A stretch of DNA of 64,000 nt, taken from Candidatus Dependentiae bacterium (GTDB taxonomy: Bacteria > Babelota > Babeliae > Babelales > Vermiphilaceae). Below the pieces are notes generated by a model. That model searched no databases, had not been told where the DNA came from, and saw only the letters and a list, made by a program, of their open reading frames with translations. Positions 18,951-39,801 of this stretch are shown piece by piece. The position numbers and the translations under genes were made by a program. Location: NCBI GenBank assembly GCA_020431705.1, contig JAGQHQ010000002.1:62001-126000 (forward strand), in the 5' to 3' direction. Within the stretch, counting starts at the first letter, position 1, and every line of letters starts with the position of its first letter.

Positions 18951-20324
18951 ATGCGCAATGGCAATAGACATTCGTCACAAGCTCATTTAGTTAGACCTGA
19001 AAAAATATTGGGACGCTCTTTGCCATCACATTCGGAAGCAGAACGGGCAATTCTTGGTGCGATTCTATTGAATGACGAATACGTTGCTCTTGTCAGTGAA
19101 TTACTCAAAGCAAGTGATTTTTATCACATACCGCATCAAATTATTTATCAGGCAATTCTTGATGTGTCAGCCCAACTTAAGCGGATTGATCTCATTACAC
19201 TACAAGATGAATTAACAAAGAAAAATAAACTCGAAGATATTGGCGGTATTGTGTACCTCATGTCACTTCAAGAAGATATTCCAGCTATTGGATTACTCGA
19301 ACAGCATGCAAAAATTGTCAAGGAAAAGTCAGTATTAAGATCGCTCATTAATTCTGCTGCTGATATTATTACCAATTGCTACAATCAAAATGAAACTGAT
19401 ATTGATCGCGTATTGGACGAAGCAGAAAAAACTATTTTTCAAATATCAGAAAAAAGATCAAACCAAAATTTTATACAACTTAATATTTGGTTAAAAAAAA
19501 CATTTCAACATCTATCTAACATTAAAAGCCATAGCAAGGGAATAACTGGTGTTCCGTCTGGTTATAAGCAACTTGACTTGATGTCTTCAGGATTTCAAGG
19601 TGGAGATTTAGTTATTTTAGCCGCACGTCCTTCAATGGGAAAAACAGCACTTTCTTTGAGTATTGCAAATAATGCAGCCTTTAGTGGTGCTACTGTTGGT
19701 TTTTTCTCTTTGGAAATGTCAGCTGAACAACTAACCCTACGAATGCTTTCAGCAGAATCAGGTATTTCGCATCATAATATTCGCAATGCAACCATTACAT
19801 CAGATGAGTGGGTTGAATTGACAAATGTCGCAGCAAAGCTTGCAAATATGAAATTATTTATTGATGATACCGCAATGCTTTCTGTGATGGAATTACGTGC
19901 AAAAGCGCGAAAGCTAAAGATTGAGCATAATTTACAGTTCCTAATAATTGATTATTTACAGTTATTACATAGCAAAAAAAGACATGAAAATAGACATCAA
20001 GAAGTTTCAGAAATCTCTCGTTCTTTAAAAGGACTTGCAAAAGAGTTAAATATTCCTATATTAGCGTTATCTCAACTTTCTCGAGCTGTTGATAGCAGAA
20101 TGGACAAACGCCCCATGCTTTCTGATCTAAGAGAGTCTGGCGCAATTGAGCAAGATGCTGATCTCATTATTTTTTTATATCGAGATGTTGTGTATAATCA
20201 AGATACAGAAAACCCAGAGCTTTCCGAACTTATTGTTGGCAAGCAGCGTAATGGGCCGACAGGAACCGTCTATCTCAATTTTATTCGCGAACTTACCAAA
20301 TTTGAAGATTTTCAAGATATGTAG
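18951..20324 (+). CDS. dnaB: Replicative DNA helicase DnaB
   Basis: The 457-residue protein has the DnaB N-domain (LPSHSEAERAILGAIL) and a RecA-like helicase core. The core carries Walker A in AARPSMGKTALSLSIA, FFSLEMSAEQL, Walker B in LQFLIIDYLQLL, ALSQLSRAVDSR and a C-terminal PELSELIVGKQRNGPTG. It unwinds DNA ahead of the fork as a hexamer. Length is normal. The start has no clear ribosome binding site. Confidence 0.97.
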   Translation: MRNGNRHSSQAHLVRPEKILGRSLPSHSEAERAILGAILLNDEYVALVSELLKASDFYHIPHQIIYQAILDVSAQLKRIDLITLQDELTKKNKLEDIGGIVYLMSLQEDIPAIGLLEQHAKIVKEKSVLRSLINSAADIITNCYNQNETDIDRVLDEAEKTIFQISEKRSNQNFIQLNIWLKKTFQHLSNIKSHSKGITGVPSGYKQLDLMSSGFQGGDLVILAARPSMGKTALSLSIANNAAFSGATVGFFSLEMSAEQLTLRMLSAESGISHHNIRNATITSDEWVELTNVAAKLANMKLFIDDTAMLSVMELRAKARKLKIEHNLQFLIIDYLQLLHSKKRHENRHQEVSEISRSLKGLAKELNIPILALSQLSRAVDSRMDKRPMLSDLRESGAIEQDADLIIFLYRDVVYNQDTENPELSELIVGKQRNGPTGTVYLNFIRELTKFEDFQDM

Positions 20325-21095: not shown

Positions 21096-22646
21096 GTGAA
21101 AAAATTTTTTCATATTATAAATGTACTTGTTTTTTTTACCGCTGCAATAAACGTAAATACTTCTCAACTATATGCTAAAACAAAAAATAAATGGTTAGAA
21201 ATTCAACAAAAAGGACATAATGCTGTTGTGCAAATTTTTTGTCACAATGTTATTACTGATCTTATTATTCCATTCCGCATGCCCGAAGAAAAGAGTTCTT
21301 GTTCAAGTGGCTTTTTTATTAAACAAAATAATAATTTTTTTATAGTAACAAACGCTCATGCTGTTGGTACACAAAAAGAAGTGTATTTTTGCCTTCCTGC
21401 AGCAGGAAATAGACCATTTAAAGCTTATGTTTTAAGCATTGCGCCAGAACGAGACCTTGCATTGCTTAAGCCAATCAAAAAGTTCAATCACTATATGCAA
21501 GAATATTTTGGATCAATTCATTACCTAGAGCTTGCAGATTCTGATATGGTAGCAATAACTGACGAAGTTTTAGCATTAGGTTATCCACTTGGCCAACAAG
21601 GTATAAAGGGGACAAAAGGTGTTGTTAGCGGTTGGCACCAGGGACTGATTCAAACAGATGCACCAATAAATCCAGGAAATTCTGGTTGTCCATTGTTAAG
21701 CCGAGATGGAAAGGTCATTGGTATAACATGTAGTGGTATACCACAAGCGCAGAATGTTGGCTACTTTATTCCCGTCAATGAACTTAAGCTTATTTTACCA
21801 GCGCTGCACGAACATGCCTTAGTAAAAAAACCATTTTTAGGAATTTTATCAATTAACGCAACAGATGCTATGACTGATTTTTTAGGTAATCCACGGCCGG
21901 GTGGTTGCTACGTTGTCGAGGTAATCAAAGATTCTCCTCTGTATAAAGCGGGTGTACAAAGTGGCGATATGATTTATGAAATTGATGGTCATAAACTTGA
22001 TATTTATGGTGATATGCAAGTTGATTGGTTTTTTGATAAAGTTTCACTTATTGATTATGTTGCGCGTTTGGCAATAGGGCAAACAGTCAATCTTGTTTTA
22101 TACCGCAACGGAGAACGTAAAGAATTAGAAGTTGATTTTGATTATTCTCAAGATTTACCAATTCGTCATATTTATCCAGGATATGATAAAATTGATTATC
22201 GTGTTTTCGGTGGCATGGTTATTATGCCTCTTTCGCTCAATCATGTAGCAATTTTTGAAAAACATGCACCTGGTTTACAACGCTATTGCAAGCTGAAAAA
22301 CCAAGTTGAGCCACGTTTAATTATTACGCATATTTTTTCAAATACTGCGTTGCATCTATCTCGTACTATTGCACCGGGTGTTGTTATAAATAAAATCAAT
22401 GATAAGCAAGTAAAAACGCTAGAAGACTTTGATCAGGCATTATCAGATAGTATTACAAGCGGCTACCTTACCTTAAATGTTGTCGATACTATCACTAAAG
22501 CATCGGATAGCATACCGGTAGTTTTATTGTTTGAAGAATTACTAAAAGAAGAAATAACATTGTTGCAAACATATCATTATCCATTACTTGAAAGCACAAA
22601 ACAATTGTTTGAAAAAGCAGGTTATGCGGATGCATTAAACCATTAG
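21096..22646 (+). CDS. HtrA/DegP-family serine protease with PDZ domain
   Basis: The start is GTG at 21096 with AAGGAA upstream. The 516-residue protein has a signal peptide (1-28) and a trypsin-like domain with the complete triad: His88 (VTNAHAV), Asp120 (ERDLALL) and Ser196 (NPGNSGCPL). A PDZ domain follows (about 240-340, with GGCYVVEVIKDSPLYKAGVQSGDMI). A second, weaker PDZ-like region lies near 420-470 (APGVVINKINDKQVKTLEDF). It probably works in periplasmic protein quality control. Confidence 0.9.
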   Translation: MKKFFHIINVLVFFTAAINVNTSQLYAKTKNKWLEIQQKGHNAVVQIFCHNVITDLIIPFRMPEEKSSCSSGFFIKQNNNFFIVTNAHAVGTQKEVYFCLPAAGNRPFKAYVLSIAPERDLALLKPIKKFNHYMQEYFGSIHYLELADSDMVAITDEVLALGYPLGQQGIKGTKGVVSGWHQGLIQTDAPINPGNSGCPLLSRDGKVIGITCSGIPQAQNVGYFIPVNELKLILPALHEHALVKKPFLGILSINATDAMTDFLGNPRPGGCYVVEVIKDSPLYKAGVQSGDMIYEIDGHKLDIYGDMQVDWFFDKVSLIDYVARLAIGQTVNLVLYRNGERKELEVDFDYSQDLPIRHIYPGYDKIDYRVFGGMVIMPLSLNHVAIFEKHAPGLQRYCKLKNQVEPRLIITHIFSNTALHLSRTIAPGVVINKINDKQVKTLEDFDQALSDSITSGYLTLNVVDTITKASDSIPVVLLFEELLKEEITLLQTYHYPLLESTKQLFEKAGYADALNH

Positions 22647-22675
22647 CAAAAAATAAGCACAACAGGAGAAGGGTA

Positions 22676-23191
22676 ATGGTAGTGTTGGGCATTGATCCAG
22701 GTTTGCGCTTTAGCGGTTACAGTGTTATTAAAGAAGATAAAGGAACTACTTTTTTAATTGATTGCGGTTATTTGGCGTTACCTCAAAAAAAATCTATTGC
22801 GCATCGCCTACGACTATTCCATGACTTTTTTGATCAAAAAATACAGAAAAAAAATATTACCGATATAACCATAGAAATACCATTTTTGGGAAAAAATGCA
22901 CAAAATTTCTTAAAGCTTGGTTATCTACGTGGAATTGTTTATCTATTATCAGACTTACATGAAATCAATTTGCATGAGTATTCGCCACGTGAAGTAAAAC
23001 AAGCAGTAACTGGCTTCGGCGGCGCAAGTAAAGAACAGGTTGCGCGCATTCTGTTACAACTTTTTCCCGGTTTACAAAAACCAAAACGAGAAGACGTAAC
23101 TGATGCGCTTGCAGTAGGTCTGTGTGGTTTATGGCGAAAAAAGAATATCCAAATTAATAACACAACCTATAAAGACTATAAAATAACCTAA
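22676..23191 (+). CDS. ruvC: Holliday junction resolvase RuvC
   Basis: The 171-residue protein begins MVVLGIDPGLRFSGYSVI (first catalytic Asp in GIDPG). It has ITIEIPFLGKNAQNFLKLGYLRGI with a catalytic Glu, SPREVKQAVTGFGGASKEQV, and the C-terminal KREDVTDALAVGL with the last acidic residues. An AGGAGAAGGG ribosome binding site precedes it. RuvC cuts four-way junctions during recombination repair. Confidence 0.95.
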   Translation: MVVLGIDPGLRFSGYSVIKEDKGTTFLIDCGYLALPQKKSIAHRLRLFHDFFDQKIQKKNITDITIEIPFLGKNAQNFLKLGYLRGIVYLLSDLHEINLHEYSPREVKQAVTGFGGASKEQVARILLQLFPGLQKPKREDVTDALAVGLCGLWRKKNIQINNTTYKDYKIT

Positions 23192-23283
23192 AACCATTGC
23201 ATTTCTGTTCTCATTTTTTGTATACAACTGATATAAGGGGCAACATAATAAGGTGTAGTTAACAATTAAGGGGGATTAATACG

Positions 23284-23778
23284 ATGCAGTCAGGTGAAAA
23301 GCACAAGCAAAATAATCTATTTGTATATGAAAGATATGTAGATTTAACAAAAGTACATCACATAGGAACATCTCTTCAGGAAGAAGATATTATAAAAATA
23401 CAGCACATATTTATGTCTTGCGGTGTTCACCATGTAAAAATAAAAAATATAACAGCAGGGCGCGAAATTATCGCTAAATTTTTAAACGCTCTTAACTGTT
23501 ATTGTGAAGTAGGATGTCTAACTATGGAAAAAGATCAACTTTTCGATAACGTATGGGATATGTATTATCATCTGATTGGCGGTGGTTATATACAGTGTAA
23601 TCAACTTGTAAAACGTGAGCAATTTTTTGTAGATGAATTTTATGCAGATTTTTTATGGGTCGAAGCAACTGACAAACTCATGTTACAATCATGGTTTGTA
23701 ATGATACAGAAAGCACTAGTTGACCTGCATATTGACCAATATGTACCCATCATTTTTTTGTCATACGAAGATCAATAA
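23284..23778 (+). CDS. Hypothetical protein, 164 residues
   Basis: The gene has its own strong GGGGG-containing ribosome binding site and stands alone between ruvC and the dif-like site. The product is predicted soluble and cytoplasmic, with no signal peptide or membrane segment. It looks like a mixed alpha/beta domain rich in aromatic and histidine residues. No family is recognised. The intact frame and good initiation signals support a real gene. Confidence 0.6.
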   Translation: MQSGEKHKQNNLFVYERYVDLTKVHHIGTSLQEEDIIKIQHIFMSCGVHHVKIKNITAGREIIAKFLNALNCYCEVGCLTMEKDQLFDNVWDMYYHLIGGGYIQCNQLVKREQFFVDEFYADFLWVEATDKLMLQSWFVMIQKALVDLHIDQYVPIIFLSYEDQ

Positions 23779-23905
23779 TTACGTAAAATGATTTACTTGC
23801 AATACCAAAATTTTGATATAGTATTGAGTGTAAGTGGCTTCTTATCTTTGAATAAAACTTCTCACACATTTCATGAAATTCTTATGTGGTAGCAAAGAAT
23901 GATTT

Positions 23906-23933
23906 ATTTCTGATAATGTATATTATGTAAAAA
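23906..23933. other. dif: dif-like chromosome dimer resolution site
   Basis: The 16-base core ATAATGTATATTATGT (23913-23928) is identical to the centre of E. coli dif. The layout fits an 11-bp XerC arm (ATTTCTGATAA), a 6-bp spacer (TGTATA) and an 11-bp XerD arm (TTATGTAAAAA). It is intergenic and lies 8.4 kb from a Xer recombinase gene. The site is where XerC/XerD resolve chromosome dimers and marks the replication terminus. Confidence 0.72.
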
Positions 23934-23980
23934 AATAGATACCCTCGAAAAGCTTTTACTAATCGATGGTATCGTTGATT

Positions 23981-25591
23981 TTAGCTATAATAAATGCCAG
24001 CCCTTATCGACAAGCCCCATGTGTCGAGTGCTTTGTTTCCATTGCCAAATTCGATGTCAAATCCGGCACCTAAAAACGCTGAATAATCTTCTCGTTTCCA
24101 CATATGTTGTCCGTAAGCAAACAACGTATGTGAAATTGCGCGCGGTGCTCGACTGCGATCAAAATCAAGTTTGCTAAAAATATTGTGCTGATTCAAAAGA
24201 TTACTATTAGAATCTGCATCAACATTCATTCCTGATGTCATTATTATCGTTGACGTTGGATCAACTAAACCAATACTAGATCCCCCAGCACCTGACAAGC
24301 CCTTAATGCCATAATCTTTTTCATCCAAATCAGAGCCGCAGATGCATAGCCTAATTTTATCGCAGTCAAATCTTTCGCGTGCACGCGCCCAAAGATTATA
24401 ACCTAGATCAAAACTCCACGCTTTATAGTCGATGCGTGCTGCAGCAAGAAGCTCCATCTGCCAATCAAAATGAGAGCGGACAACAACAGAAAACACGTCT
24501 GCAAAATTAACAAGATTATTATTATAGTCTCCGTCAACATTAAACTCCTTAAGCAACAAATATCGACTTGCACAACCGTTGTCCTTTAAATCAAAACAGC
24601 GGCATACGTGGCGGGCAAAAAGATGTGTGGCATATATATCAAAAGTACCATTGACGCTGATATCTTTATCTTCCAATTTCCAAAAAAGTGCTTGCCCATG
24701 AAATCCACCACCAACCTGCCATCTCCCATTACCAATACGTGGTTCAAAAATATGCGCCCCTTCAGGCTCACCGCCAGCTGGCGCTATGGTTCGGAAATAC
24801 CAAGCAACATGCCAGTCTTCTTTTGAAACAAAATTCCACCCCAAATTCATAGTAACATCGGCAACACCCCATTTTGATTCTTCGCAACAAACAATTTTGC
24901 AACGCTCAAGCCCTTTTTTCTTGTCGCCAAAGGTAGATTTACCTGCAAATGCATCCAAAGCGCTTGTTGCTCCAACTGCAACTGGATCATTGGTGTTCCT
25001 AACAAAGTTAGCCGCAAAAGTAGCATCACCTTTTTCTAGAATCTCTTCACAGCAATCAAGTTTCCACTGCGTCCATGTTATTGGCAAACGAATATCAAAC
25101 CATGCACCAGAAAGATGATAGTCTAAATCAACATAAAATGACGGCTCAATAACAAAGTTTTGAATTTTAGGGTTTAACATTATTCTACTTTTAAATGTAT
25201 TGGACAAACCCAAATCAACGTTACGAATATTAGTGTCAGTACCCCCAGCAGTGGTATCTGGGCCTACAATAAAAGAGTTACATCCTTTGTTAAAAGAAAA
25301 ATAAGAACCCAGAGTATCCCTATTTCTGTTTCGGTAATACTCAAGAGCCATACTAAACAACCAGGCAAAAGAATCCTCGTTCGATTCAAATTCATGAATA
25401 AAACGATTTGATCCGACATAAGATCGAGCAAGTGATATACCTTGAGATCGTGGAATAAATGGCGCCTTACAAAACTCATCCTCACAAGAATCAGAATCTG
25501 TTGTCGCCGTAACGCAACATGAATCAGCATAAAGCATGCCCGCACATACCATTACCATACATAAAGCTAAAAAATATATACGCTTAATCAT
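23981..25591 (-). CDS. Outer-membrane beta-barrel protein of unknown function
   Basis: The 536-residue protein has a signal peptide (1-22, ending GMLYADS) and then a Cys-rich N-terminal segment. A long region follows with alternating aromatic/polar strands (for example FVIEPSFYVDLDYHLSGAWFDIRLPITWTQWKL), ending LSIRAGIYYS with the terminal aromatic pattern expected for BAM-dependent barrels. The repeated short strands and Gly/Asp turns suggest a porin-like barrel. It is the downstream partner of a beta-helix gene 26 bp upstream and is probably co-transcribed with it. Confidence 0.72.
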   Translation of the reverse strand: MIKRIYFLALCMVMVCAGMLYADSCCVTATTDSDSCEDEFCKAPFIPRSQGISLARSYVGSNRFIHEFESNEDSFAWLFSMALEYYRNRNRDTLGSYFSFNKGCNSFIVGPDTTAGGTDTNIRNVDLGLSNTFKSRIMLNPKIQNFVIEPSFYVDLDYHLSGAWFDIRLPITWTQWKLDCCEEILEKGDATFAANFVRNTNDPVAVGATSALDAFAGKSTFGDKKKGLERCKIVCCEESKWGVADVTMNLGWNFVSKEDWHVAWYFRTIAPAGGEPEGAHIFEPRIGNGRWQVGGGFHGQALFWKLEDKDISVNGTFDIYATHLFARHVCRCFDLKDNGCASRYLLLKEFNVDGDYNNNLVNFADVFSVVVRSHFDWQMELLAAARIDYKAWSFDLGYNLWARARERFDCDKIRLCICGSDLDEKDYGIKGLSGAGGSSIGLVDPTSTIIMTSGMNVDADSNSNLLNQHNIFSKLDFDRSRAPRAISHTLFAYGQHMWKREDYSAFLGAGFDIEFGNGNKALDTWGLSIRAGIYYS

Positions 25592-25616
25592 TATTACTTC
25601 TCCTTTTTTTATTTTC

Positions 25617-27860
25617 TTATCTCATAAGACTTATATTAACGCCCTCTTTCAATCTCTCCATGCTTGCAAGAGCGCAATAACTTCCATAGATTAATGGTAT
25701 TACTTTACCTGGATCGGTATAAGAAACAGCAAAGTTAGTGTGATTTCCGTGTGCGATGTTACGTATAATAAATGATCCATCGGCTTCAGTTATTGCCATA
25801 CCATAGCCAAATCCAAATGAACCATCAGATCTATTATTTGCAAATCCATTGTTTGTGATTGTCATATATTGGGCATTTTTAGCGTACATACCATATCCTT
25901 TGCCTGCGCCACCGTTATTTGAATTCGCTTGGCAATCAGTAATAATGGTATATGTATCATTGCTGCTATCAGATTTATCGATAGAAAAACCTGCAGCAAT
26001 TGATTGTGATTCTGCTGTTGCGTCTGTTTCTCCAGAACAATACATATTTATTGCCTGACACTCTCTACATTCCGTTCCTTCTGTGCCCAATAGCTGGAAT
26101 CCAATAGCGCGCTTTTCGCTTGTTAAAGTCAAACTGGAGGTTGCTTTATTATCAAAAGCGGTACAGCTATTGAATAGATTCGCTCGAGATCCTTCAATAG
26201 AAAACCCATAGCAATAACGAGGTGATTCAAGTAGTTGAGCTTGGCAATTGGTAAACTCGTTTGAATTCGCAGTATTATCAACAATAAAACCATAGACATG
26301 AGATGAAGGATTTACCACAGAAGAAGGATTATCTAAAAAGGCAACATGATCATTTGATAAGCAGTTAATAAAATCATTTACTGATGATTCATTTATAACT
26401 GAAACGCCATTAACATTTCCATTGGTAGAGGAACACTCAAAAACAGATGTATCAACAACAGAACAGTTATGACATGCAGTCAATGAGACACCATACACAT
26501 CATTTCCTGTATAGCGTATTTGATCAAAGTCATAATTTTCACCAGCAGGAATATCTGAAAGTAAGTGCCCTTTATCACCAATATTTTCCAACCCAAAAAC
26601 ACGACAATTCTTAATATATACACCATGGCCACAGTCAACGCGTATACCAAAAACCCCTTTATCTGTATGACCAGCAAAATCACCAACAAACCCAGGCTTT
26701 ACCTGGCTTAAAAAGGTGGTTTCATCTGGAGAATCAGAAAGAATATTATTAGCAAATCCTTCGGGTAGTAGCTCAGGATGATTTTCATTGACCGCATATG
26801 TTTGCGCTTTTAATAATGCATTAGGAGCAAATGTACCATCAGGATAGGCATCAGCCCAACGCATAACGCCAAAGCGCTCACCCTTGAGAGTGATGCCATT
26901 GTTATCTTGTATATGAATTGTTTCAATAACTTTTGATTTCATATTACATACAGTTACATCCTCAATGATAACACAGTTGGTTGTCGCATCGGTACAATGA
27001 AGTGGTAGTGGACCAACATCTACGGTACGATTTAAAAACAAGCCATACGCATTGCCATCATGGGTAGCGCTTGGATGATCAGAGCCATTTTGGGCAGGAT
27101 CATTTGCCATAATTTCTAAAGCGGTAATATACGGTTGGGCATTGACATCTCCACCATCTTTCAATTTGTTTAGCTCAACTAAAGCCATGTTGATAACAGC
27201 CAACAACCCAGTAAATGGCACTTCATGTTCGATACCAGAGATATCCAGGTGTCTCATTTCTCCACTCTTTAAACCATTCAAACTAACACCAGCCACCTCG
27301 AAATCTCTTATAATTAAGTTATCTATTCTCACATTCACATTTCCGTTACCGTGAATACCATGATGTGGTGAACGGCCCAAGGTCCCATTGGTAATCAAAA
27401 CATTTTTTGCTGTTTTTATCTCAGTTTCTCCTGGATATGCAAATAAAAAATGTGGAAATGGCGAATTATTTAACTCAATCATTGAAAAAACTTTAAAGGA
27501 ATGAGTATCTATGAAATCTTGGCTTGTTTCTAATGTTTTTGTATTCAAATCAAAAACGACATTATCACACTCAATTGACAACGCGGTAAACCAGCCAACG
27601 TCTGGCTTATCAGTTCTTGATGCTTCAGAAGCTGGAATGGGAGCAAAGATGATATCTTCTGTAAGATAGTAGTATCCGGACTCTTGAATACGATATGAGC
27701 CACTATCAAAGTCCGATTGACTCAATGCAATGGCATTATTAGTAACAAGCAACCCAGTTGGCTGCAGCTGCGGCCCACGATGCTTACCAAAACTATTAAA
27801 CACATAAAGCAACAAGAATACAAAAAAACTTTTCCTCACAATATCATTATAGCGCACCAT
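25617..27860 (-). CDS. Exported right-handed beta-helix repeat protein
   Basis: The ATG at 27860 is chosen because AAGGAGACGG lies just upstream; the frame also extends to 27884. The 747-residue product has a signal peptide and then parallel beta-helix (NosD/pectate-lyase-like) coils. These are visible as repeated patterns such as GVYIKNCRVFGLENIG, YGVSLTACHNCSVVDTSVFECSS, YGFIVDNTANSNEFTNC and YGFSIEGSRANLFNSC. Such folds serve as polysaccharide-active enzymes or passive surface adhesins. No catalytic set is recognisable here. Its tight coupling to the barrel gene suggests a surface assembly. Confidence 0.75.
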   Translation of the reverse strand: MVRYNDIVRKSFFVFLLLYVFNSFGKHRGPQLQPTGLLVTNNAIALSQSDFDSGSYRIQESGYYYLTEDIIFAPIPASEASRTDKPDVGWFTALSIECDNVVFDLNTKTLETSQDFIDTHSFKVFSMIELNNSPFPHFLFAYPGETEIKTAKNVLITNGTLGRSPHHGIHGNGNVNVRIDNLIIRDFEVAGVSLNGLKSGEMRHLDISGIEHEVPFTGLLAVINMALVELNKLKDGGDVNAQPYITALEIMANDPAQNGSDHPSATHDGNAYGLFLNRTVDVGPLPLHCTDATTNCVIIEDVTVCNMKSKVIETIHIQDNNGITLKGERFGVMRWADAYPDGTFAPNALLKAQTYAVNENHPELLPEGFANNILSDSPDETTFLSQVKPGFVGDFAGHTDKGVFGIRVDCGHGVYIKNCRVFGLENIGDKGHLLSDIPAGENYDFDQIRYTGNDVYGVSLTACHNCSVVDTSVFECSSTNGNVNGVSVINESSVNDFINCLSNDHVAFLDNPSSVVNPSSHVYGFIVDNTANSNEFTNCQAQLLESPRYCYGFSIEGSRANLFNSCTAFDNKATSSLTLTSEKRAIGFQLLGTEGTECRECQAINMYCSGETDATAESQSIAAGFSIDKSDSSNDTYTIITDCQANSNNGGAGKGYGMYAKNAQYMTITNNGFANNRSDGSFGFGYGMAITEADGSFIIRNIAHGNHTNFAVSYTDPGKVIPLIYGSYCALASMERLKEGVNISLMR

Positions 27861-27960
27861 ACCGTCTCCTTTTTTTAAAAACATGTGCTTCTTATAACTA
27901 ACTATATTGATGAAAAAACTGCAATATAATTGCTTATTTTTTCTGCCATAAAATATGGTA

Positions 27961-28470
27961 TCATGTAAGCAACATAAAAAATGCCATACCAGCCATTAAT
28001 AGGTCCTCAAAAAGGGTAACGTACGTCATTGGAATTTTAAAAACAACACCTAGGCATGCACATATAATCTGCTTACCTTTTCGCAATTCATTAAAAACGC
28101 CAGCAGCACTAACAAGCATAAGAATAAGCGCAAAGCTATTAATAATAATTGGCTGCCATCCCGTAAGATAAGCAAACCCTAGGCCAACCTCTAAAAATGG
28201 ATATATGTAGCCGTATTGAGGCATATGCGCAGCAATAAGATCATACTCCGCATATGCTTTTGCAAATCCGGCAATATTTATTACCTTAAATCCACCAAAG
28301 ACTAAAAAAAATGCTGCCATAAAAATTCGCATGGCATTCGTAACGTCCCAGCCATAATACAATTGATGTATTACTGTTATGCCAATTATGACGGTAAAAA
28401 TAAATATCAGTGGCATAAAATCAGTTAATGTATAACCTTCTTGATTGCTTTTTTGATTGTTATGATTCAT
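27961..28470 (-). CDS. MauE/DoxX-family integral membrane protein
   Basis: The 169-residue protein has four predicted helices. The pattern resembles MauE/DoxX proteins: FFLVFGGFKVINIAGFAKAY, YGYIYPFLEVGLGFAYLTG and CACLGVVFKIPMTYVTLFEDLLM. Some members support disulfide or quinone redox reactions; the function here is unknown. It lies 12 bp after the propeller-like gene, suggesting an operon. Confidence 0.7.
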   Translation of the reverse strand: MNHNNQKSNQEGYTLTDFMPLIFIFTVIIGITVIHQLYYGWDVTNAMRIFMAAFFLVFGGFKVINIAGFAKAYAEYDLIAAHMPQYGYIYPFLEVGLGFAYLTGWQPIIINSFALILMLVSAAGVFNELRKGKQIICACLGVVFKIPMTYVTLFEDLLMAGMAFFMLLT

Positions 28471-30006: not shown

Positions 30007-31059
30007 TCAATGTGTCAATATTAGTCTCTGCGCGCCTAAATCAAGCAATTGATCCTTGAAAAAACTCTCTTGAACTGGACTTGTAAAAACTAATTGCGAA
30101 CGTAAACTTTGCAATGCAGACAACAAGGATATTGTACGATTTTCATCAAAATCTGTCATAAAGTCATCAAGCAAGATAATAGCCGATCCTTTTACTTTTC
30201 TGAGCTGCTCTACTTGCGCAATCTTGAGCAACACGATAATAAGCTTTTGTTGTCCACGAGAAGCAAATAACTTCGACTGCTTACGCTGAAATTGTATTGC
30301 AAAGTCATCCAAGTGAGCTCCAAAAAGTGAGCGCCCGGAACGGGTTTCGGCGGTAAACAGTTCCTCTTGAAATGCTTTGCACTCATACGTAAAATGAATT
30401 GAAAGCTCTGGATCAACATAGCGATGTAGTAAAAAATTAACATCCTTTTCCAGCTGAGTAAGCGCCTCTTTACGCAATGCAGCAATTATGTCACTACAGC
30501 TACTCAATTGTTGCGTCCATACATCATATGATGTCCGGTTAATACCGCCACGTTTAAAACCATTTTTGAGTAGGCTATTACGATTATCTACAATATTTTT
30601 TAGTTTTTTTAGCAACCCAAGGTACTCGGCACCTTGCAGAACAAGAAGCTGATCCAGAAAACGTCTTCTACCCTCAGGCGCACCTTTTATAAGTGAAAGA
30701 TCATCTTCAGTAAGCGTAACAACACGGTAATGATCAAGCACTTGCTTATAACTCGCAACTGGTTTTTGGTTCAATTTTACTAATCGTTTTTTATCCGCAA
30801 AACCAATTTGTAGTTCATGTCGCTCTTGCGCGTAGGCAAATCCAACTTTAATAAAAAATGCTTCTTGTTCAAATCGAACAAGTTGCGCTGGATAATACGT
30901 TCTAAACGAGCGAACATAACATGCATAATGTATCGCTTCTAGCAAGGATGTTTTGCCAGAGCCATTGGGCCCCTCAACAAGCACCAATGGCTCTGTAAAA
31001 TCAAATGCTTTTCGCTCAAAACAGCGAAAGTTCTTTATATGAAGGTGTGTTAACTCCAC
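30007..31059 (-). CDS. recF: DNA replication and repair protein RecF
   Basis: The 350-residue SMC-like ATPase has LTHLHIKNFRCFE at the N-terminus, Walker A GPNGSGKTSLLEAIHY, the RecF motif PEGRRRFLDQLL, the signature ASRGQQKLIIVLLKI and Walker B IILLDDFMTDFD. RecF helps load RecA at gaps on single-stranded DNA. It follows dnaN by 21 bp, the usual partner order. Confidence 0.95.
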   Translation of the reverse strand: MELTHLHIKNFRCFERKAFDFTEPLVLVEGPNGSGKTSLLEAIHYACYVRSFRTYYPAQLVRFEQEAFFIKVGFAYAQERHELQIGFADKKRLVKLNQKPVASYKQVLDHYRVVTLTEDDLSLIKGAPEGRRRFLDQLLVLQGAEYLGLLKKLKNIVDNRNSLLKNGFKRGGINRTSYDVWTQQLSSCSDIIAALRKEALTQLEKDVNFLLHRYVDPELSIHFTYECKAFQEELFTAETRSGRSLFGAHLDDFAIQFQRKQSKLFASRGQQKLIIVLLKIAQVEQLRKVKGSAIILLDDFMTDFDENRTISLLSALQSLRSQLVFTSPVQESFFKDQLLDLGAQRLILTH

Positions 31060-31080: not shown

Positions 31081-32217
31081 TTATTGATTAGTTGGAGAAA
31101 CAGGCATCACTAAATATAAAACATGATGCTCATTAACATCTGACTCAAAAATAATTGGCTTTGCAGAATTTTTCAAATGGAATCGAAGAGTGCTATCTGA
31201 AAACGCCTGTAATCCATTTAAGACATAAGGTGCATAAAATCTAATTGCCAGTTTATCGCTATTAAATTTATCGAGCGGCAATTCTTCATGCAGTTTTCCC
31301 ACCTCAGTATTATGCATGGATACTTGCAATACATTCGGAGTAAAATCAAAATTTGTTGCAATAAATTGACCAGATAGTAAACAAGCAGAACGACGTAACG
31401 TTTTAACCAGTTGTGCACGGTCAACTGTTGCTGGAGTAAATCCCTTTTTGTCCAAAATTGCAGAATATTCAGGGAATTCATTTACCAACAACTTAGTAAA
31501 AAAGTTAAACGATTCGCCAGAAACAACCAATTGATTTGAACACATACCAAAAAAGACTGCCGAATCTTTTTCTGATTTTCTATCATCAGATTCTAAAATT
31601 TTTTTTACTTCAAAAACGGCCCTGCGTGGTAACAGCCATTTTTGAGATTCGTTCAGTGTATACTTTGGTGTACGAACTTGTGCAAGGCAATGACCATCAG
31701 TTGTTGTCATGGTCAAGCCAGTATCATCAATTTCCAATAACAAACCGTTCAGCGCTGGGTTTGCATTATTTTGTGGAATTAAAAAAGCAACTTTACCCAA
31801 CATATCAAGCAAAAATGGTGATTCCAATTGCATCAAGTTTTCTATGCGCTCGGGAAATGGTGGAAACTCCTGCGCATCTTTTACATTAAGTGCAACATCA
31901 ACAGTACCAGCTTTAATTTCCAATTGCTGACCATTAAAACTAAAAGTAATATCACCTTCCAGTTCTTTTACAAGATCAAAAATACGTTTTCCCGAAACTA
32001 AAAATGATTGCGGTGAATCTATTTGCACTTCAGAAATAGCGCAACTTGATTGTAGGCTGATTTCTAAATCAGTACTTTTGAGTACAACTTCTTTATGTCC
32101 AACTTTAAACATAATATAACTTGTAATATCAAGCGCTGTACGTTTACCACAAATGGGTTGCATAGATGACAAAATTGCCAAAAGCGGCTTCTGTTCTATA
32201 ATAAATCTATTTTCCAT
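31081..32217 (-). CDS. dnaN: DNA polymerase III beta sliding clamp
   Basis: The start at 32217 follows AAAGGA and gives 378 residues beginning MENRFIIEQKPLLAILSSM, the normal clamp length; the frame extends to 32301. Clamp landmarks include FDLVKELEGDITFSF, NNANPALNGLLLEIDDTGLTMTTTDGHCLA, LLPRRAVFEVKKIL and the C-terminal HVLYLVMPVSP. It forms a dimeric ring tethering the polymerase. Confidence 0.95.
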   Translation of the reverse strand: MENRFIIEQKPLLAILSSMQPICGKRTALDITSYIMFKVGHKEVVLKSTDLEISLQSSCAISEVQIDSPQSFLVSGKRIFDLVKELEGDITFSFNGQQLEIKAGTVDVALNVKDAQEFPPFPERIENLMQLESPFLLDMLGKVAFLIPQNNANPALNGLLLEIDDTGLTMTTTDGHCLAQVRTPKYTLNESQKWLLPRRAVFEVKKILESDDRKSEKDSAVFFGMCSNQLVVSGESFNFFTKLLVNEFPEYSAILDKKGFTPATVDRAQLVKTLRRSACLLSGQFIATNFDFTPNVLQVSMHNTEVGKLHEELPLDKFNSDKLAIRFYAPYVLNGLQAFSDSTLRFHLKNSAKPIIFESDVNEHHVLYLVMPVSPTNQ

Positions 32218-32326
32218 AAAAAATCCTTTTTCACAAATGTGATGCAAATGTGCAACGATCAGTATATCTATATTATGTATAACAGCAAAGATATCAAGCA
32301 AATCCCTTACTCTTTAAATACATTTT

Positions 32327-33226
32327 TTAAGAACGTGGATGCTTTTTGTCATACACTTGCCTTAAGTAACTTGTTTCCAAATGTGTATAGATTTGTACTG
32401 TTGAAAGATTTTCATGTCCCAATAGCAATTGAAGCGAGCGCAAATTTGCCCCATGCTTAAGCATGTGTGTTGCAAATGAATGGCGAAGTTTATGTGGCGA
32501 AATAGTGCGCTTAATGCCAGTACGCGCCCATATTTTTTTTAAAATTATCCAAAATGCTTGGCGAGTGATTGGCTTTACTTTTCCAGCATAATACGTGGGA
32601 AATAAGTAATTTGTTTTTTTCTTTTTTTGTGTAAAATCCTTATGTATAGACTCCAAATATAGCCTAAGAAGTTTTATCATTGGTTGTGGAAGCGGAACCA
32701 TTCGCCCCCTTCCGCCTTTACCACTCACAGATATAAAGCCTGTATCAAAACGAACTTCACCAATAGTGACACTAACTAATTCACTAATGCGCATGCCAGT
32801 AACATATAATAAATACAGCATTACTTTATTACGAATACCATTATGAGTTATGTCCCTGTCAGCAACATGCAATAATTTTTCCACTTCATTTTCTGGTAAA
32901 TAATTAGGAAGTTGTTTTTCTAGCTTTGGAAAGGTAACGCTTTCAGCAATATCTTTATAATTAGCATGCTCAGATAAATATTTAAAAAATGATTTTAACG
33001 ATGATATTTTACGAGACATACTCCTTGCACTCATTTTTTGTGCTTTTAAATGATGCAAATATTTTTTTATATTATCTTGATGAGCTTTTTTGAGGGTAAT
33101 ATTCTGCTTTTTTAGAAATTTCATAAACTGCCCAATGTCAGTCTTATACGCAGCAAACGTATTATGAGAAACACATTTTTCAGTTAATAGATACGCTTCA
33201 AATTTAGCAACCAATGCTTCACTCAT
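32327..33226 (-). CDS. xerD: Xer-type tyrosine site-specific recombinase
   Basis: The 299-residue protein has a SAM-like N-domain and a complete tyrosine-recombinase catalytic set: Arg146 (TGMRISEL), Lys170, His245 and Arg248 (HKLRHSFATHML), His271 (LLGHENLS) and nucleophile Tyr280 (VQIYTH). Length and motifs fit XerC or XerD; I cannot separate them reliably. The likely target is the dif-like site at 23.9 kb. It lies 25 bp from proS. Confidence 0.9.
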   Translation of the reverse strand: MSEALVAKFEAYLLTEKCVSHNTFAAYKTDIGQFMKFLKKQNITLKKAHQDNIKKYLHHLKAQKMSARSMSRKISSLKSFFKYLSEHANYKDIAESVTFPKLEKQLPNYLPENEVEKLLHVADRDITHNGIRNKVMLYLLYVTGMRISELVSVTIGEVRFDTGFISVSGKGGRGRMVPLPQPMIKLLRLYLESIHKDFTQKKKKTNYLFPTYYAGKVKPITRQAFWIILKKIWARTGIKRTISPHKLRHSFATHMLKHGANLRSLQLLLGHENLSTVQIYTHLETSYLRQVYDKKHPRS

Positions 33227-33251: not shown

Positions 33252-34676
33252 TTAATATGCTTTTGCTACCAATACATCACCTTTGTTTGGCTCAGAGCAA
33301 TTAAAACATTCATCAAAAAAAGACTCTTTTTCTATCAAACAACGAGTAAATGCTTTATATTTCTTTAGCTGTTGCTCACAAGTGTCTTTACCGCACCACC
33401 CAGTTTGATAAATACCATTTTCTTTTTCTAGTGTTGGTCCAAATTCGATAAGCTTAGCTCCTTTCTGCCACATACTTTTCAAACGCTTGTGCGCATTTTC
33501 AAACATGCTTTTTTGAATTACCTCTAGTAAGACTTGTATTTCTTGCACTACGCTTTCAAGTGGCAACACCTTCTTGTCACCGTTAAAGCGAATTGCTACT
33601 ATTGCTTGCTTTTTTTCCAGATCACGTGAACCAAGCTCAATGCGAATCGGTACACCTTTAAGTTCCCATTCATAAAACTTAGCACCGGGTGTTTTGTATT
33701 CGCGATCATCAACATGACAACGCACTTTTTCGCCAAGCTCTGTTTTTATTTTTTGTGCAGCATCAAGAATTACTTTGTTATCAGTATTTTTTTTCATAAT
33801 TGGTATAATCACCACTTGTTTTGGTGCAATTTTTGGTGGTAACACTAAACCATTCTGGTCACCATGTGTCATCACTACTGCACCAATTAAACGCGTTGTG
33901 GTACCCCAGCTGGTCAACCAGGGATGTATTTGCTCCTTATTTTGATCTTGAAACGTAATGTTAAATGATTGTGCAAACGTTTGAGAAAGCAAATGAGAAG
34001 TCCCCATTTGCAGTGCTTTACCATCCTGCATCACAGCTTCAAAAGTCATAGTAATATCAGCACCAGGAAATTTTTCGCTATCTGTTTTTCTACCAGCAAT
34101 CACTGGAATTGCTAAATAATCTTGTGCAAGGCTAACATACTCACCAAGCATCTGCATAACCTCTTTATACGCTTCATCACGTGTTGCATGTGCAGTATGC
34201 CCTTCTTGCCAAAAAAATTCTGTAGTACGCAAAAACGGACGTGGCCGTAGTTCCCAACGAACAACATTAGCCCACTGATTAATTTTTAGTGGTAAATCAC
34301 GCCATGAGTTGATCCATTTAGAAAACATATAATGAATAATAGTCTCGGATGTTGGACGTACTACCAACGGTTCTTCTAATTTTTTGCCGCCAGCATAAGT
34401 AACAACTGCCAATTCTGGTGCAAAACCCTCAACATGTTCAGCCTCTTTTTTCAAAAAAGATTCTGGAATTAAAAGAGGAAAAAGCATATTTTCATGCCCA
34501 GTTTCTTTAATACGTGTATCCAAACGGCTCTTTATACGTTCCCAAATGGCATAGCCATAGGGACGAACAATCATTGTTCCTCGAACAGGGGATTGATCAG
34601 CCAATTGAGCCTTATAAATAACATCTATGTACCATTCTGGAAACTTTTTTTTAATATCAGGTAACTGGTCACTCAT
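33252..34676 (-). CDS. proS: Prolyl-tRNA synthetase, short (archaeal/eukaryote-like) type
   Basis: The 474-residue class II synthetase has PVRGTMIVRPYGYAIWERI (motif 1), VVRPTSETIIHYMFSKWI, RWELRPRPFLRTTEFFWQEGHTAH (motif 2) and GTSHLLSQTFAQSFNI. It lacks the inserted editing domain of the long bacterial type and has a cysteine-bearing C-terminal domain (GWCGKDTCEQQL, then CFNC). It charges tRNA-Pro. Confidence 0.96.
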   Translation of the reverse strand: MSDQLPDIKKKFPEWYIDVIYKAQLADQSPVRGTMIVRPYGYAIWERIKSRLDTRIKETGHENMLFPLLIPESFLKKEAEHVEGFAPELAVVTYAGGKKLEEPLVVRPTSETIIHYMFSKWINSWRDLPLKINQWANVVRWELRPRPFLRTTEFFWQEGHTAHATRDEAYKEVMQMLGEYVSLAQDYLAIPVIAGRKTDSEKFPGADITMTFEAVMQDGKALQMGTSHLLSQTFAQSFNITFQDQNKEQIHPWLTSWGTTTRLIGAVVMTHGDQNGLVLPPKIAPKQVVIIPIMKKNTDNKVILDAAQKIKTELGEKVRCHVDDREYKTPGAKFYEWELKGVPIRIELGSRDLEKKQAIVAIRFNGDKKVLPLESVVQEIQVLLEVIQKSMFENAHKRLKSMWQKGAKLIEFGPTLEKENGIYQTGWCGKDTCEQQLKKYKAFTRCLIEKESFFDECFNCSEPNKGDVLVAKAY

Positions 34677-34897: not shown

Positions 34898-35431
34898 ATG
34901 ACCAGAAAAAATTATTTACTAACATTTGTATCTTTATTTGTTGGTTTTTCGTTATACTCAATGCAAGAAAACTCTTTTGAAAAGTATAAAACAATATACA
35001 ATGAGGCACTAAAATCATTAGGGAAAGATCCCTCAAAATGTTCTCTTCTTTTTGTAAATGATGCTAGTGGCCCAGAAGCATACAGCACGCATAATACAAC
35101 TTGTCTAGATAAAGATAGATTCGAAAAATCAACACACGAGAAAAAAAATAAAACACTTATTCATGAAGCATGGCATGTTGGAAATAATGACTATCTAAAG
35201 CGAGTCTGCTTTTTCAGCTCTAACTTACTAACAGGTATCACCACTTCTTTACGCCTCTTTACGCATCGTGAAATTTTCGGCAAAAAGCCGGGACTTCCAA
35301 CAGTTTTAATGCTATTTAGCTCAGTGATGGGCCTTTTTTGGGGTGAAAAATATCTTATTTTACACCAAGAAAACCGTGCAAAACAATATACTAAAAAGAA
35401 AATAAATCAAATGTATAAAAGTAGTATGTAG
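34898..35431 (+). CDS. Small exported/membrane protein with HExxH zincin-like motif
   Basis: The 177-residue protein has a signal peptide ending LYSMQEN. It carries the motif LIHEAWHVGN, in which His89, Glu90 and His93 match the HExxH zinc-protease signature. One or two hydrophobic segments follow (about 105-122 and 135-155, with GEKYLIL). AAGGTAA lies upstream. It immediately precedes three tandem exported paralogues. Protease activity is inferred from the motif alone, and no third zinc ligand is obvious. Confidence 0.6.
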   Translation: MTRKNYLLTFVSLFVGFSLYSMQENSFEKYKTIYNEALKSLGKDPSKCSLLFVNDASGPEAYSTHNTTCLDKDRFEKSTHEKKNKTLIHEAWHVGNNDYLKRVCFFSSNLLTGITTSLRLFTHREIFGKKPGLPTVLMLFSSVMGLFWGEKYLILHQENRAKQYTKKKINQMYKSSM

Positions 35432-35492
35432 CAAGTTATACAAAAAGAAACGCATTTTAAATAGAGATTTCATCTAGGTTAGGGGGTTTTTT

Positions 35493-36437
35493 GTGAAACA
35501 GTATATATGCAATGTTATACTTGCATGTACGCTTATTTTTAGCGTGATAGATATTTATTCTAGCGTAGAAAAAAAAGAAAATTGCCTTAGTTCACCCTAT
35601 TTTGTATTAAAACTAGAAAAATTAACAAAAAATGATACTGTAAAGATAAAGCGATTAATAGAGCATAAAAATAAAATGAGAATACTACATAGCTTTAAAT
35701 GCACGGTGCGCCAAAATTCATTTGGAAATTATTTGAAGTACTCTTGGAGTAGAGGATTTGCTTTTATGGAACTTATGGCTAAGCAAATATGGTATATTTC
35801 TCGACTAATATCTACACCAATTGATATTTTGGCAAGTATATCGGTTTTCATACAAAAATGGGAGTATGGCTCTAAATTACTTAATGGAACAAAAGAAGAA
35901 AAAAAGATTAAGAATACATTAAGAAAAAGCCTAATCGGTAACAGGGTTGAACAGCTTGATGTGTATGAAATGTATGAAAACAAATATGATCTATTTAAGG
36001 TATCTATAGATAATCATGCTTTATGGGTTAATATCCATCAATATGGACAGTTGAATTCTCAACAAAAAGAACGTGCAATAACGTCAATGGGTAACTACAT
36101 GCGATATTATGGGCCAGCTGGTGAAATTATAGCTCCTTGGATAGCAGGAAGCTTTAGTTTTTGGTATGCAAATAAATTATTAAAAAAACATTATAGTACT
36201 GGCGTCGTTGGTATGATACGAAAAAGTAGAAATGCGCAAAAAATTGCTGCTCTCGTTGGGGGTGGAGTTATTGCTTTTAAAATTTTAAAAAGAGCGGTAC
36301 AAAAATCGATTGAGATAGGGCTTGCAAAGGGTCCGTTTAATTTTTTATTTAATAATACAGTAAAAGTGTGTCTTTGCACCGATAATGATAATAGCAAAAA
36401 GACACTAAAAAAGGAAAAACTGCTAAAAAATAAATAA
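35493..36437 (+). CDS. Exported protein of unknown function, family B copy 1
   Basis: The 314-residue protein starts at GTG behind AGGGGG and has a signal peptide (MKQYICNVILACTLIFSVID). It shares with the next two genes a helical middle part and a strongly conserved block, ITSMGNYMRYYGPAGEI, followed by AGSFSFWYANKLLKKHY, VGMIRK and a glycine-rich hydrophobic helix, GGGVIAFKILK. The glycine-rich helix suggests membrane insertion. No known family is recognised. Confidence 0.75.
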   Translation: MKQYICNVILACTLIFSVIDIYSSVEKKENCLSSPYFVLKLEKLTKNDTVKIKRLIEHKNKMRILHSFKCTVRQNSFGNYLKYSWSRGFAFMELMAKQIWYISRLISTPIDILASISVFIQKWEYGSKLLNGTKEEKKIKNTLRKSLIGNRVEQLDVYEMYENKYDLFKVSIDNHALWVNIHQYGQLNSQQKERAITSMGNYMRYYGPAGEIIAPWIAGSFSFWYANKLLKKHYSTGVVGMIRKSRNAQKIAALVGGGVIAFKILKRAVQKSIEIGLAKGPFNFLFNNTVKVCLCTDNDNSKKTLKKEKLLKNK

Positions 36438-36499
36438 CAGTCAGCTGTTTGAAACAAAAACGAAATATTTTAATATAGTAATTTTAGGGGGAATTTCTC

Positions 36500-37483
36500 A
36501 TGAAACAACATATATATAGTTTAGTATTTGCCTATGCACTTATTTTTAATGCAATAGATATTTTTAGCATGAAAAAAAAAGAAAATGATACCTATGCACA
36601 TTTTTCTGCATTCAATTCACTATCTTTAGAAAAAAATGACATCTTGAATAGAAATGTGAAGCAAATAATAAAATATGAAAATACAATGAACACATTAAAC
36701 AAGTTAGGATATCAAACCAACCAACGTACATTCAACGATTACATTAAATATTCTTTGAATAGACAGCATCCTTTTATGAGGTTTGGTGTAATGGCAATAT
36801 GGTATGTTGGTAAAAACTTTTATATGCCGGTAGATCTTGCATCAAGAGCATCCGTCACCATACAATCATTAGAGAATGGTTCTAAATTACTAGATTATGA
36901 GTGTGCAGACAAAATTAGAAATACATTAAGTGAAGAAAAGTCATTAGGAAATAAAGCTAAAAATATTGATCTTTATGCTATGTCTAATGATGATGATGAT
37001 CTATTTAGAGCAACAATTTTTAATAATGCCCTTTGGGTTAATATCCATAAATATAGACAATTAAATCCACAACAACAAAAAGAAAAAGTAATGTCAATGG
37101 GCAAATATATGAAATATTATGGGCCAGCTGGTGAAATTATTGCTCCTGGGTTAGCCGGAAGTTTCAGTTTTTGGTATGCAGACAAACTCTTAAAAAAGCA
37201 TTACGGTACTGGCATCGTTGGTATGATACGAACAAACAAAAATGCACAAAAAGTTGCTGCTATCTTTGGAGGTGGAGCGATTGCTTGGAAACTCCTCAAA
37301 AAACCAATGGAAAAAATGTGCGAAACAGGACTTAACAAAAGTCTATTTGATTCATTGTTTAATACCACAATGGCAAAAGTATGCACTTATACTGATGATG
37401 ATAAAAATAACGAGATAATAGAAGAGAAAAAAAAAATAGATACTACCAATACAAATGTTACGAAAGAAATGTCTAAAAGATAA
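36500..37483 (+). CDS. Exported protein of unknown function, family B copy 2
   Basis: This 327-residue tandem paralogue follows an AGGGGGAA ribosome binding site. It has a signal peptide (MKQHIYSLVFAYALIFNAID, then FSMKKKEN). The conserved core VMSMGKYMKYYGPAGEI, AGSFSFWYADKLLKKHYGTG, VGMIRTNKNAQKVAAIFGGGAIAWKLLKK closely matches copy 1. The C-terminus is charged and variable. Near-identical gene size and spacing indicate recent tandem duplication. Confidence 0.76.
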   Translation: MKQHIYSLVFAYALIFNAIDIFSMKKKENDTYAHFSAFNSLSLEKNDILNRNVKQIIKYENTMNTLNKLGYQTNQRTFNDYIKYSLNRQHPFMRFGVMAIWYVGKNFYMPVDLASRASVTIQSLENGSKLLDYECADKIRNTLSEEKSLGNKAKNIDLYAMSNDDDDLFRATIFNNALWVNIHKYRQLNPQQQKEKVMSMGKYMKYYGPAGEIIAPGLAGSFSFWYADKLLKKHYGTGIVGMIRTNKNAQKVAAIFGGGAIAWKLLKKPMEKMCETGLNKSLFDSLFNTTMAKVCTYTDDDKNNEIIEEKKKIDTTNTNVTKEMSKR

Positions 37484-37607
37484 ATAATGGTCTATTCCAG
37501 AACTAAAATCTTGGAAAGGTCCTTACAAAAAAGATAGTGGTACGAAGTAACAATATATATTAATTGTAATTCTATTTAAAATTTAGAGGATTTTTGCATG
37601 AAACAAT

Positions 37608-38618
37608 ATGTATGCAATGCTGTTGCTTGCTTGTACCTTGAGTCTAAACACAATGAATACTTTTTGCATGGAGAAAAAGGAAAATAAAACATTTTCTAGA
37701 CCTGATATAGAGCTAGGAAGAAAATTATATAATGCAAGTAAATTGAATGAGCAAGAAAAACAATTACAGTTAAAACATTATTCAGTTAACCAAGTTTCAT
37801 TAAATAATTACTTTAAAGATACTTGGAACAGACAAGCACCTTTCATAAAATTTGGATATTCGATGGTGTGGGAAGGTTTAAAGCTAATATCTGTGCCTTT
37901 CGAGCTAGCAGTAAACACTCTCGTGCCTATACAAAGATTGGAATTTGGCTCTAAGCTTCTTAGCAAAACAGATACAGAAGAAATTAAAAATGCATTAGGC
38001 AACAGTTCATTTAGCTATAGAATTAAAAGTCTTAATTTATACGATATGTCTAAATATAATGTGTCTAAAAATAAAGATAATTTGTTTAAGGCATCACTGA
38101 ATAATCGAGCTTTATGGGTTGATATCTATAAATATAAACAATTGAATTTACAACAAAGAAAACAGGCGGTAACATCAATGGGTAACTATATGAGATATTA
38201 TGGGCCAACTGGTGAAATAGTAATTCCTGGAGCAACAGGAAGCTTCTGCTGTTGGTACGCAAGTAAACTCACAAAAAAATATTTCGGTACTAGTATCGTT
38301 GGTATGATACAGAAAAATAAAAATACACAAAAAATGATTGGTATTATTGGTGGGGGGGCTATAGCATTTAAGGTTTTAAAAAAATCAACAAATAAAATAC
38401 ATGAAAATAATACCGATGTTTTGATTCATACTGCCGGAAAAGGAGGCGGAGCGATAACTCTTAATGCTTTACAAAAACCAATACATAAAACATTAAAAAA
38501 AACACTTGAAAAAGGTCCGTTTGATTCCTTGTTTGAGCACACAGTACCTGCGTGTACTTACACTGATGATGAAGACCAAGCACTATCAGAAGAAAAGAAA
38601 AATACCGATAAAAAGTAG
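37608..38618 (+). CDS. Exported protein of unknown function, family B copy 3, with shifted 5' end
   Basis: The 336-residue product has the family core TSMGNYMRYYGPTGEI, GSFCCWYASKLTKKYFGTS, VGMIQKNKNTQKMIGIIGGGAIAFK. It also has an extra segment with a second GGGAITLNALQKP block. The GAGGA ribosome binding site is placed for an ATG at 37598. That frame begins MKQYVCNA like the other copies but runs out of phase after one extra base. The frame from ATG 37608 restores a hydrophobic leader (MYAMLLLACTLSLN, then FCMEKKEN). Which start is used, if any, is uncertain. Confidence 0.7.
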   Translation: MYAMLLLACTLSLNTMNTFCMEKKENKTFSRPDIELGRKLYNASKLNEQEKQLQLKHYSVNQVSLNNYFKDTWNRQAPFIKFGYSMVWEGLKLISVPFELAVNTLVPIQRLEFGSKLLSKTDTEEIKNALGNSSFSYRIKSLNLYDMSKYNVSKNKDNLFKASLNNRALWVDIYKYKQLNLQQRKQAVTSMGNYMRYYGPTGEIVIPGATGSFCCWYASKLTKKYFGTSIVGMIQKNKNTQKMIGIIGGGAIAFKVLKKSTNKIHENNTDVLIHTAGKGGGAITLNALQKPIHKTLKKTLEKGPFDSLFEHTVPACTYTDDEDQALSEEKKNTDKK

Positions 38619-38650
38619 GTAATATTAACAATAATAGTATAATATACACA

Positions 38651-38691
38651 TATAATTGGCAGATAGGCATTTGAAATATCTGCCAATTATA
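38651..38691. terminator. Perfect 15-bp hairpin after family B copy 3
   Basis: The arms 38651-38665 and 38677-38691 are exact inverted repeats (core TTGGCAGATA) around an 11-nt loop. There is no strong T-run on either side, so it is a weak intrinsic terminator or an RNA-stabilising hairpin. Confidence 0.5.
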
Positions 38692-38766
38692 ACTCTACCA
38701 AAAATTATTACAATAATAGTATGCTGGTTATACAAAGTATTTTAAGTTATATAATGAGGAAGTATA

Positions 38767-39717: not shown

Positions 39718-39801
39718 CATTCATCCACTTTACAAAGGCAATAGATCAACTTATCCTGCAAACTGCAAAGTATAAAAATAGAGCTAGTAACGTGGAGTAA
39801 A

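Follow-up and report, generated by a model that had tools for sequence, protein, structure and literature searches.

A dif site at the skew maximum of a Dependentiae contig and its conserved, replication-gene-rich neighbourhood in the order Babeliales

Introduction

Is a 28-bp intergenic sequence in the genome of a Candidatus Dependentiae bacterium the site at which chromosome dimers are resolved, and, if so, what distinguishes its surroundings from those of dif in other bacteria? The sequence lies in a stretch of 64,000 nucleotides (hereafter the window), which corresponds to positions 62,001 to 126,000 of contig C2 in an assembly of 1,109,706 bases (52 contigs; 97.8% complete). From the letters of the window alone, the original prediction had placed a dif site at 23906-23933, regarded its identity with the core of E. 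coli dif as notable, and pointed to a Xer gene 8.4 kb away. The relevant passage of PMC3025954 describes dif as conserved across phyla and locates xerD genes near the origin (the table of that paper has no entry for Dependentiae), while that of PMC2731167 finds no apparent specific genetic environment around proteobacterial dif. Our literature search, by titles and the beginnings of abstracts, found no paper on dif or on a terminus-located dnaA in Dependentiae, a result that does not prove that none exists.

Results

Re-reading of the sequence confirmed the coordinates. On the plus strand, the site shows the dif layout of two partly palindromic 11-bp arms around a 6-bp centre, namely an XerC-type arm, ATTTCTGATAA (23906-23916), the centre TGTATA (23917-23922), and an XerD-type arm, TTATGTAAAAA (23923-23933). 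The E. coli MG1655 record contains dif as GGTGCGCATAATGTATATTATGTTAAAT, the classical dif being on the strand opposite to that of the record. The two 28-mers are identical at 21 of 28 positions and differ in outer arm bases; the 16 consecutive identical bases that had been predicted were found, and correspond to the core ATAATGTATATTATGT at 23913-23928. As also predicted, the site is intergenic, occupying a 202-bp gap between the ORFs 23284-23778 (+) and 23981-25591 (-). A search of all 52 contigs (1.11 Mb) found the exact core at this one place, so that there are no multiple copies. When up to two mismatches were allowed, the real core gave 9 matches in the genome and the reversed pattern 6, the eight places other than dif each having 2 mismatches and being spread over several contigs. 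Within the window (about 65% A+T) there was no second match with one mismatch or fewer, and none of 100 shuffles gave any.

The position of the site relative to base composition proved closer than the original wording, "close to the skew change", had suggested. Cumulative G-C along the 126-kb contig C2 shows an overall rise from base 1 to C2:85665 (window 23665), followed by a fall, and dif (C2:85906-85933) is located 241 bp from this maximum, a distance within which a random point would fall with a chance of 0.004. The top 2000 positions of the cumulative curve span window positions 22134-24528. The predicted boundary toward mostly minus-strand genes likewise falls at dif, ORFs being mostly on the plus strand to its left and mostly on the minus strand to its right. 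With the skew maximum and the genes converging on it, dif marks the replication terminus. In two relatives assembled as single contigs, the contiguous stretches read have their skew maximum 6 kb (G055) and 12 kb (G022) away from dif. The polarity of dif relative to skew was dropped as a test, because either strand read through a terminus goes from plus to minus. On the right-hand side, the minus-strand arm is broken at 34898-40725 by six consecutive plus-strand ORFs (177-336 aa), in a part (34-40 kb) where the local skew is positive or near zero; this segment is possibly a recent insertion or inversion.

The genome contains exactly two loci matching the phage-integrase family at E<=0.001. The first, C2:94375, is the Xer gene of the original prediction (32327-33226, minus strand) and scores best with the XerD model (309.7 bits, slightly below the equivalog cut-off of 329.6), while the second, C1:71279, scores best with the XerC model (282.7 bits, below the cut-off of 335.15). 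Aligned with the solved E. coli XerD (1a0p), the window protein keeps all six of the residues R, K, H, R, H and Y, which we take to be the catalytic ones. Contig C1 encodes an FtsK comprising the alpha, motor and gamma domains. Of the FtsK-orienting motifs of E. coli and B. subtilis that were scored, GGGNAGGG pointed toward dif in a ratio of 1:0 and GGNAGGG in a ratio of 9:1 on the contig, numbers too small to judge orientation; a search for an orienting octamer gave no clear motif.

We extended the analysis to a set of 86 genomes: the genome itself plus 85 that belong to its family or order. Searching with the 16-mer core and at most one mismatch yielded 32 matches in 27 of the 86 genomes, as against 13 for the reversed pattern; the exact core was present in 13 genomes, once in each. 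Most of the 32 matches are intergenic and have common arm bases outside the searched core. Twenty-three were kept in an alignment (A1), from which seven in-gene matches (L017, L018, L022, L024, L035, L036 and L037) and two without a locus (G018:C52 and G028:C33) were left out; their consensus, in which bases outside the searched core are also common, is nnGTCTGATAATGTATATTATGTAAAAA. With a threshold of E<=0.005, a model built from these 23 matches without regard to xerD (R1) identified dif in 44 of the 86 genomes. A second model (R2), built from 42 sites (the 23 matches, 10 R1 hits, 8 sites from xerD stretches and 1 from a skew stretch), added 12 of the 40 genomes searched with it, giving 56 of 86. 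The site is found again in relatives despite divergence of the DNA on either side of it. One model hit (G018) lies inside an ORF, and a weak R1 hit, G022:C1:462860, was replaced by the one at 472644. At E<=0.005, 30 of the 86 genomes had no hit with R1 or R2; in four of these, to which R2 was not applied (G042, G048, G056 and G065), a weight matrix identified strong sites beside xerD. No convincing dif was found in the family of Babela (f3; G030, G044, G052, G060, G068, G073, G080 and G084), where the best E-values in G073 were 0.0055 (R1) and 0.037 (R2) and its best dif-like hits, at 318.8 kb, lie away from the skew maximum. The Xer proteins of this family are distant (best E 1e-9 to 1e-26), and it may use a changed Xer/dif pair.

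Alignment of the 42 sites revealed that ATAA and TTATG are kept in all 42 and TTATGT in 40, while the centre comprises 19 different hexamers; TGTATA accounts for 13 of the 42, a count inflated by the fact that 23 of the sites had been gathered by that core. Ten of the 16 bases matching E. coli (ATAA and TTATGT) belong to the inner recombinase arms. As the inner arm bases are nearly invariant and the centre is variable, the identity with E. coli amounts to arm conservation plus a common central hexamer, and is not what makes the site notable. The nearby Xer gene is the more unusual part.

Considering R1 hits only, dif and xerD share a contig in 31 of 44 genomes, from 13 families, at distances of 3.3 to 21.0 kb, and 30 of these 31 have one layout, with xerD on the side of the XerD arm and transcribed toward dif. 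Because R1 took no account of xerD, this linkage corroborates the dif sites independently. A uniform expectation for such closeness gives P ~1e-33, which is not a proper probability because the genomes are related. In the other 13 genomes, dif and xerD sit on separate contigs, apart from G077, in which no xerD was identified; judged by hand from contig extents, 8 of them may represent linkage cut by a contig end, 4 are unjudgeable and 1 (G018) has a doubtful dif. Of the 12 genomes added by R2, 10 have xerD on the dif contig (at 18.5 kb or less) and 2 do not; G021, G022, G037, G040 and G050 do not count as independent, because their own sites went into that model. The clearest exception to linkage is G027, with dif at C35:32943 (E 9.6e-5) and xerD at C3:30172, where the contig extends at least 25 kb on either side of xerD and 17 kb on its 3' side are devoid of a site. 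In G046, dif and xerD are 16 kb apart and their orientation relative to each other is not the common one, and in G004 the layout is mirrored.

Linkage to xerD is part of a larger arrangement. Forty-nine proteins of the window were compared by tblastn with 31 stretches from relatives (20 chosen for dif and xerD on one contig, 10 around xerD and 1 for skew), each of 20 kb or less, a length at which proteins distant from dif are undetectable. On the left of dif, we found rplI (ribosomal protein L9; 18433-18894, +) in 23 of 31 stretches, dnaB (replicative helicase; 18951-20324, +) in 25, ruvC (22676-23191, +) in 28, and the gene adjoining dif, which encodes a 164-aa protein of no known family (23284-23778, +), in 19. 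On the right, recF (30007-31059, -) and dnaN (sliding clamp; 31081-32301, -) are present in all 31, xerD in 29, the 2 lacking it (G011 and G022) ending before the gene, and proS (proline--tRNA ligase; 33252-34676, -) in 25. A 409-aa protein was matched in 14 stretches; of the remaining 40 proteins, 24 were found in no stretch and the others in 1 to 9. The order rplI-dnaB-ruvC-[dif]-recF-dnaN-xerD-proS recurs across the order Babeliales (Dependentiae). Stretches of up to 3 kb were also selected by dif alone; of these 29, 22 contained at least one gene of this neighbourhood and 7 none, and none of 7 in-gene decoy stretches contained any. Conservation of operons accounts for the rplI-dnaB and recF-dnaN-xerD-proS associations; it does not account for two operons and ruvC flanking dif, nor for the presence of dnaA within 100 kb while the genes between turn over. 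When the genome contigs were searched for RuvC by tblastn, no relative was matched. Immediately to the right of dif in the window, 23981-28470 contains three genes, encoding a MauE-like protein of 169 aa and two proteins without a known family (536 aa and 755 aa). None of the 31 stretches has counterparts of them in this position, and often a mere 1-2 kb separates recF from dif there; the three may be lineage-specific gains or fast-evolving genes.

In 15 of the 56 genomes with dif, dnaA is on the dif contig, at 29.8 to 94.5 kb in all 15. Sharing of a contig favours short distances, but four such contigs exceed 1 Mb, with distances of 41 kb (G022), 94.5 kb (G055), 53.6 kb (G040) and 57.6 kb (G057). 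In four genomes (G004, G046, G055 and G063), dnaA lies on the opposite side of dif or has a different direction, and inspection by hand shows the opposite side for G042 and G048 as well. In the genome under study, dnaA (C2:46494; about 45-48.5 kb) is 39 kb from dif, within the long rising arm of positive skew, and the ORF gaps beside it measure 31 and 51 bp, leaving no origin-like spacer.

Skew was sampled in 20 stretches of 20 kb each in G055 (1,174,272 bp), G022 and G073 (1,118,422 bp); by our identification, G055 is Chromulinavorax destructans and G073 is Babela massiliensis. The sampled skew changes sign from plus to minus close to dif, and back to plus about halfway around the chromosome. 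The G055 minimum falls at 652,126, and three TTATCCACA DnaA boxes occupy 651,689-651,938; the relevant passage of PMC6561590 gives 651641-652233, opposite dnaA, as the Chromulinavorax origin. For G022, the contiguous stretch that was read has its minimum at 1,135,744. In G073, the plus-to-minus turn is between 75 and 110 kb and the minimum of the sampled stretch is at 653,188, adjoined by four TTATCCACA boxes in 252 bp (C1 652023-652274), whereas none occurs in the first 1 kb, where dnaA sits. In all three genomes, rRNA and L16 genes are directed from the skew minimum to the maximum. Sites resembling parS marked no origin, being absent from the genome under study (G000), G055, G073, G004 and G031 and scattered elsewhere. 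The published Babela origin, which PMC4378268 in the passage concerned sets 152 nt upstream of dnaA, is contradicted by skew, DnaA boxes and rRNA orientation, and looks wrong. Overall, dnaA marks the terminus side, not the origin, in the order Babeliales.

Discussion

Taken together, these data make us highly confident that the 28-mer is the chromosome's dif, that it serves standard Xer resolution, and that it lies in a terminus with a fixed gene arrangement, dnaA being 30-95 kb off and the origin about half a chromosome away. The pathway, deduced from sequence, would be the standard E. coli mechanism. Two sister chromosomes fused through an odd number of crossovers would have their two dif copies brought together by FtsK at the septum; the FtsK gamma domain would activate XerD; and XerC, bound at 23906-23916, together with XerD, bound at 23923-23933, would exchange strands over the TGTATA centre, freeing two monomers.

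Elements that use Xer to integrate at dif do exist (the IMEX described in the relevant part of PMC5357621), and the three genes at 23981-28470, without relatives there in the 31 stretches, indicate that something was gained or has diverged beside the site. That the 28-mer is the attachment site or scar of such an element, and not the chromosomal site, is nevertheless highly improbable: the genome has no second exact copy and no pair of copies bounding an element, its only two tyrosine recombinases most closely resemble XerD and XerC, respectively, the region has no match in the phage collection, and the site recurs at the same place in relatives. Coincidence in an AT-rich palindrome, conceivable for so short a sequence in a window of about 65% A+T, has next to no credibility in view of the 100 shuffles without a match and of the search of 86 genomes, in which 32 core matches, mostly intergenic and with common arm bases beyond the core, compare with 13 matches to the reversed pattern.

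The gene content raises another reading, in which the region is a replication origin with inverted skew and the dif-like motif is coincidental. Other bacteria often have dnaA, dnaN-recF and rplI-dnaB close to the origin, and dnaA, dnaN, recF and dnaB are all in this region. The published Babela origin at dnaA (PMC4378268, in the passage cited above) is in keeping with it. Such an origin would, however, have rRNA and L16 genes transcribed against replication in G055, G022 and G073; the skew minimum is where TTATCCACA boxes cluster, with three within 250 bp (G055) and four within 252 bp (G073), and the first 1 kb at Babela's dnaA has none; the Chromulinavorax origin has been placed opposite dnaA (PMC6561590, same passage); and the dnaA of the genome under study lies inside a long positive-skew arm between gaps of 31 and 51 bp. 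We give this reading a very slim chance, and retain that of a chromosomal dif at the terminus.

As such a dif, the site is like the dif/XerCD systems of E. coli and most bacteria in its 28 bp, its 11-6-11 layout, its intergenic position at the terminus, and the accompanying XerC, XerD and FtsK-gamma. It differs from what PMC3025954 reports for xerD genes, in the passage cited, in that xerD is close to dif. Linkage of a recombinase gene to its terminus site is known from the difSL/XerS system of streptococci and lactococci and the difH/XerH system of epsilon-proteobacteria (relevant passages of PMC5357621 and PMC2731167), and in this respect the systems are alike. Those, however, have a single recombinase, whereas here two recombinases go with a 6-bp centre, and xerD is separated from dif by dnaN, recF and other genes. 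A dnaA away from the skew minimum, as in Babeliales, has also been described for Chlamydiales, where it is not linked to that minimum; the passage concerned (PMC2878342) reports neither a terminus location nor a conserved dnaN-recF-xerD-dif layout.

The dif itself is therefore an ordinary site, which extends a known system to another phylum, Dependentiae; what is unusual is a well conserved terminus neighbourhood holding replication genes that are normally located at the origin. The Babeliales terminus has a fixed order, with dnaA, dnaN, recF, dnaB and xerD at or near dif. Its history is a matter of speculation: an ancestral origin neighbourhood might have become the terminus after the origin moved by about 180 degrees, and replication of dnaA last of all might act as a once-per-round timer of initiation in these parasites, a scenario that we put forward as rather doubtful. 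In practice, dif provides a fixed reference point when Dependentiae genomes are finished and rotated. With dnaA on the terminus side, genomes started at dnaA, as well as the published origin of Babela, are misplaced by roughly 460 kb. If it holds true across the order, the location of dnaA, dnaN and dnaB at the terminus would be a natural experiment on why these genes usually lie near the origin.
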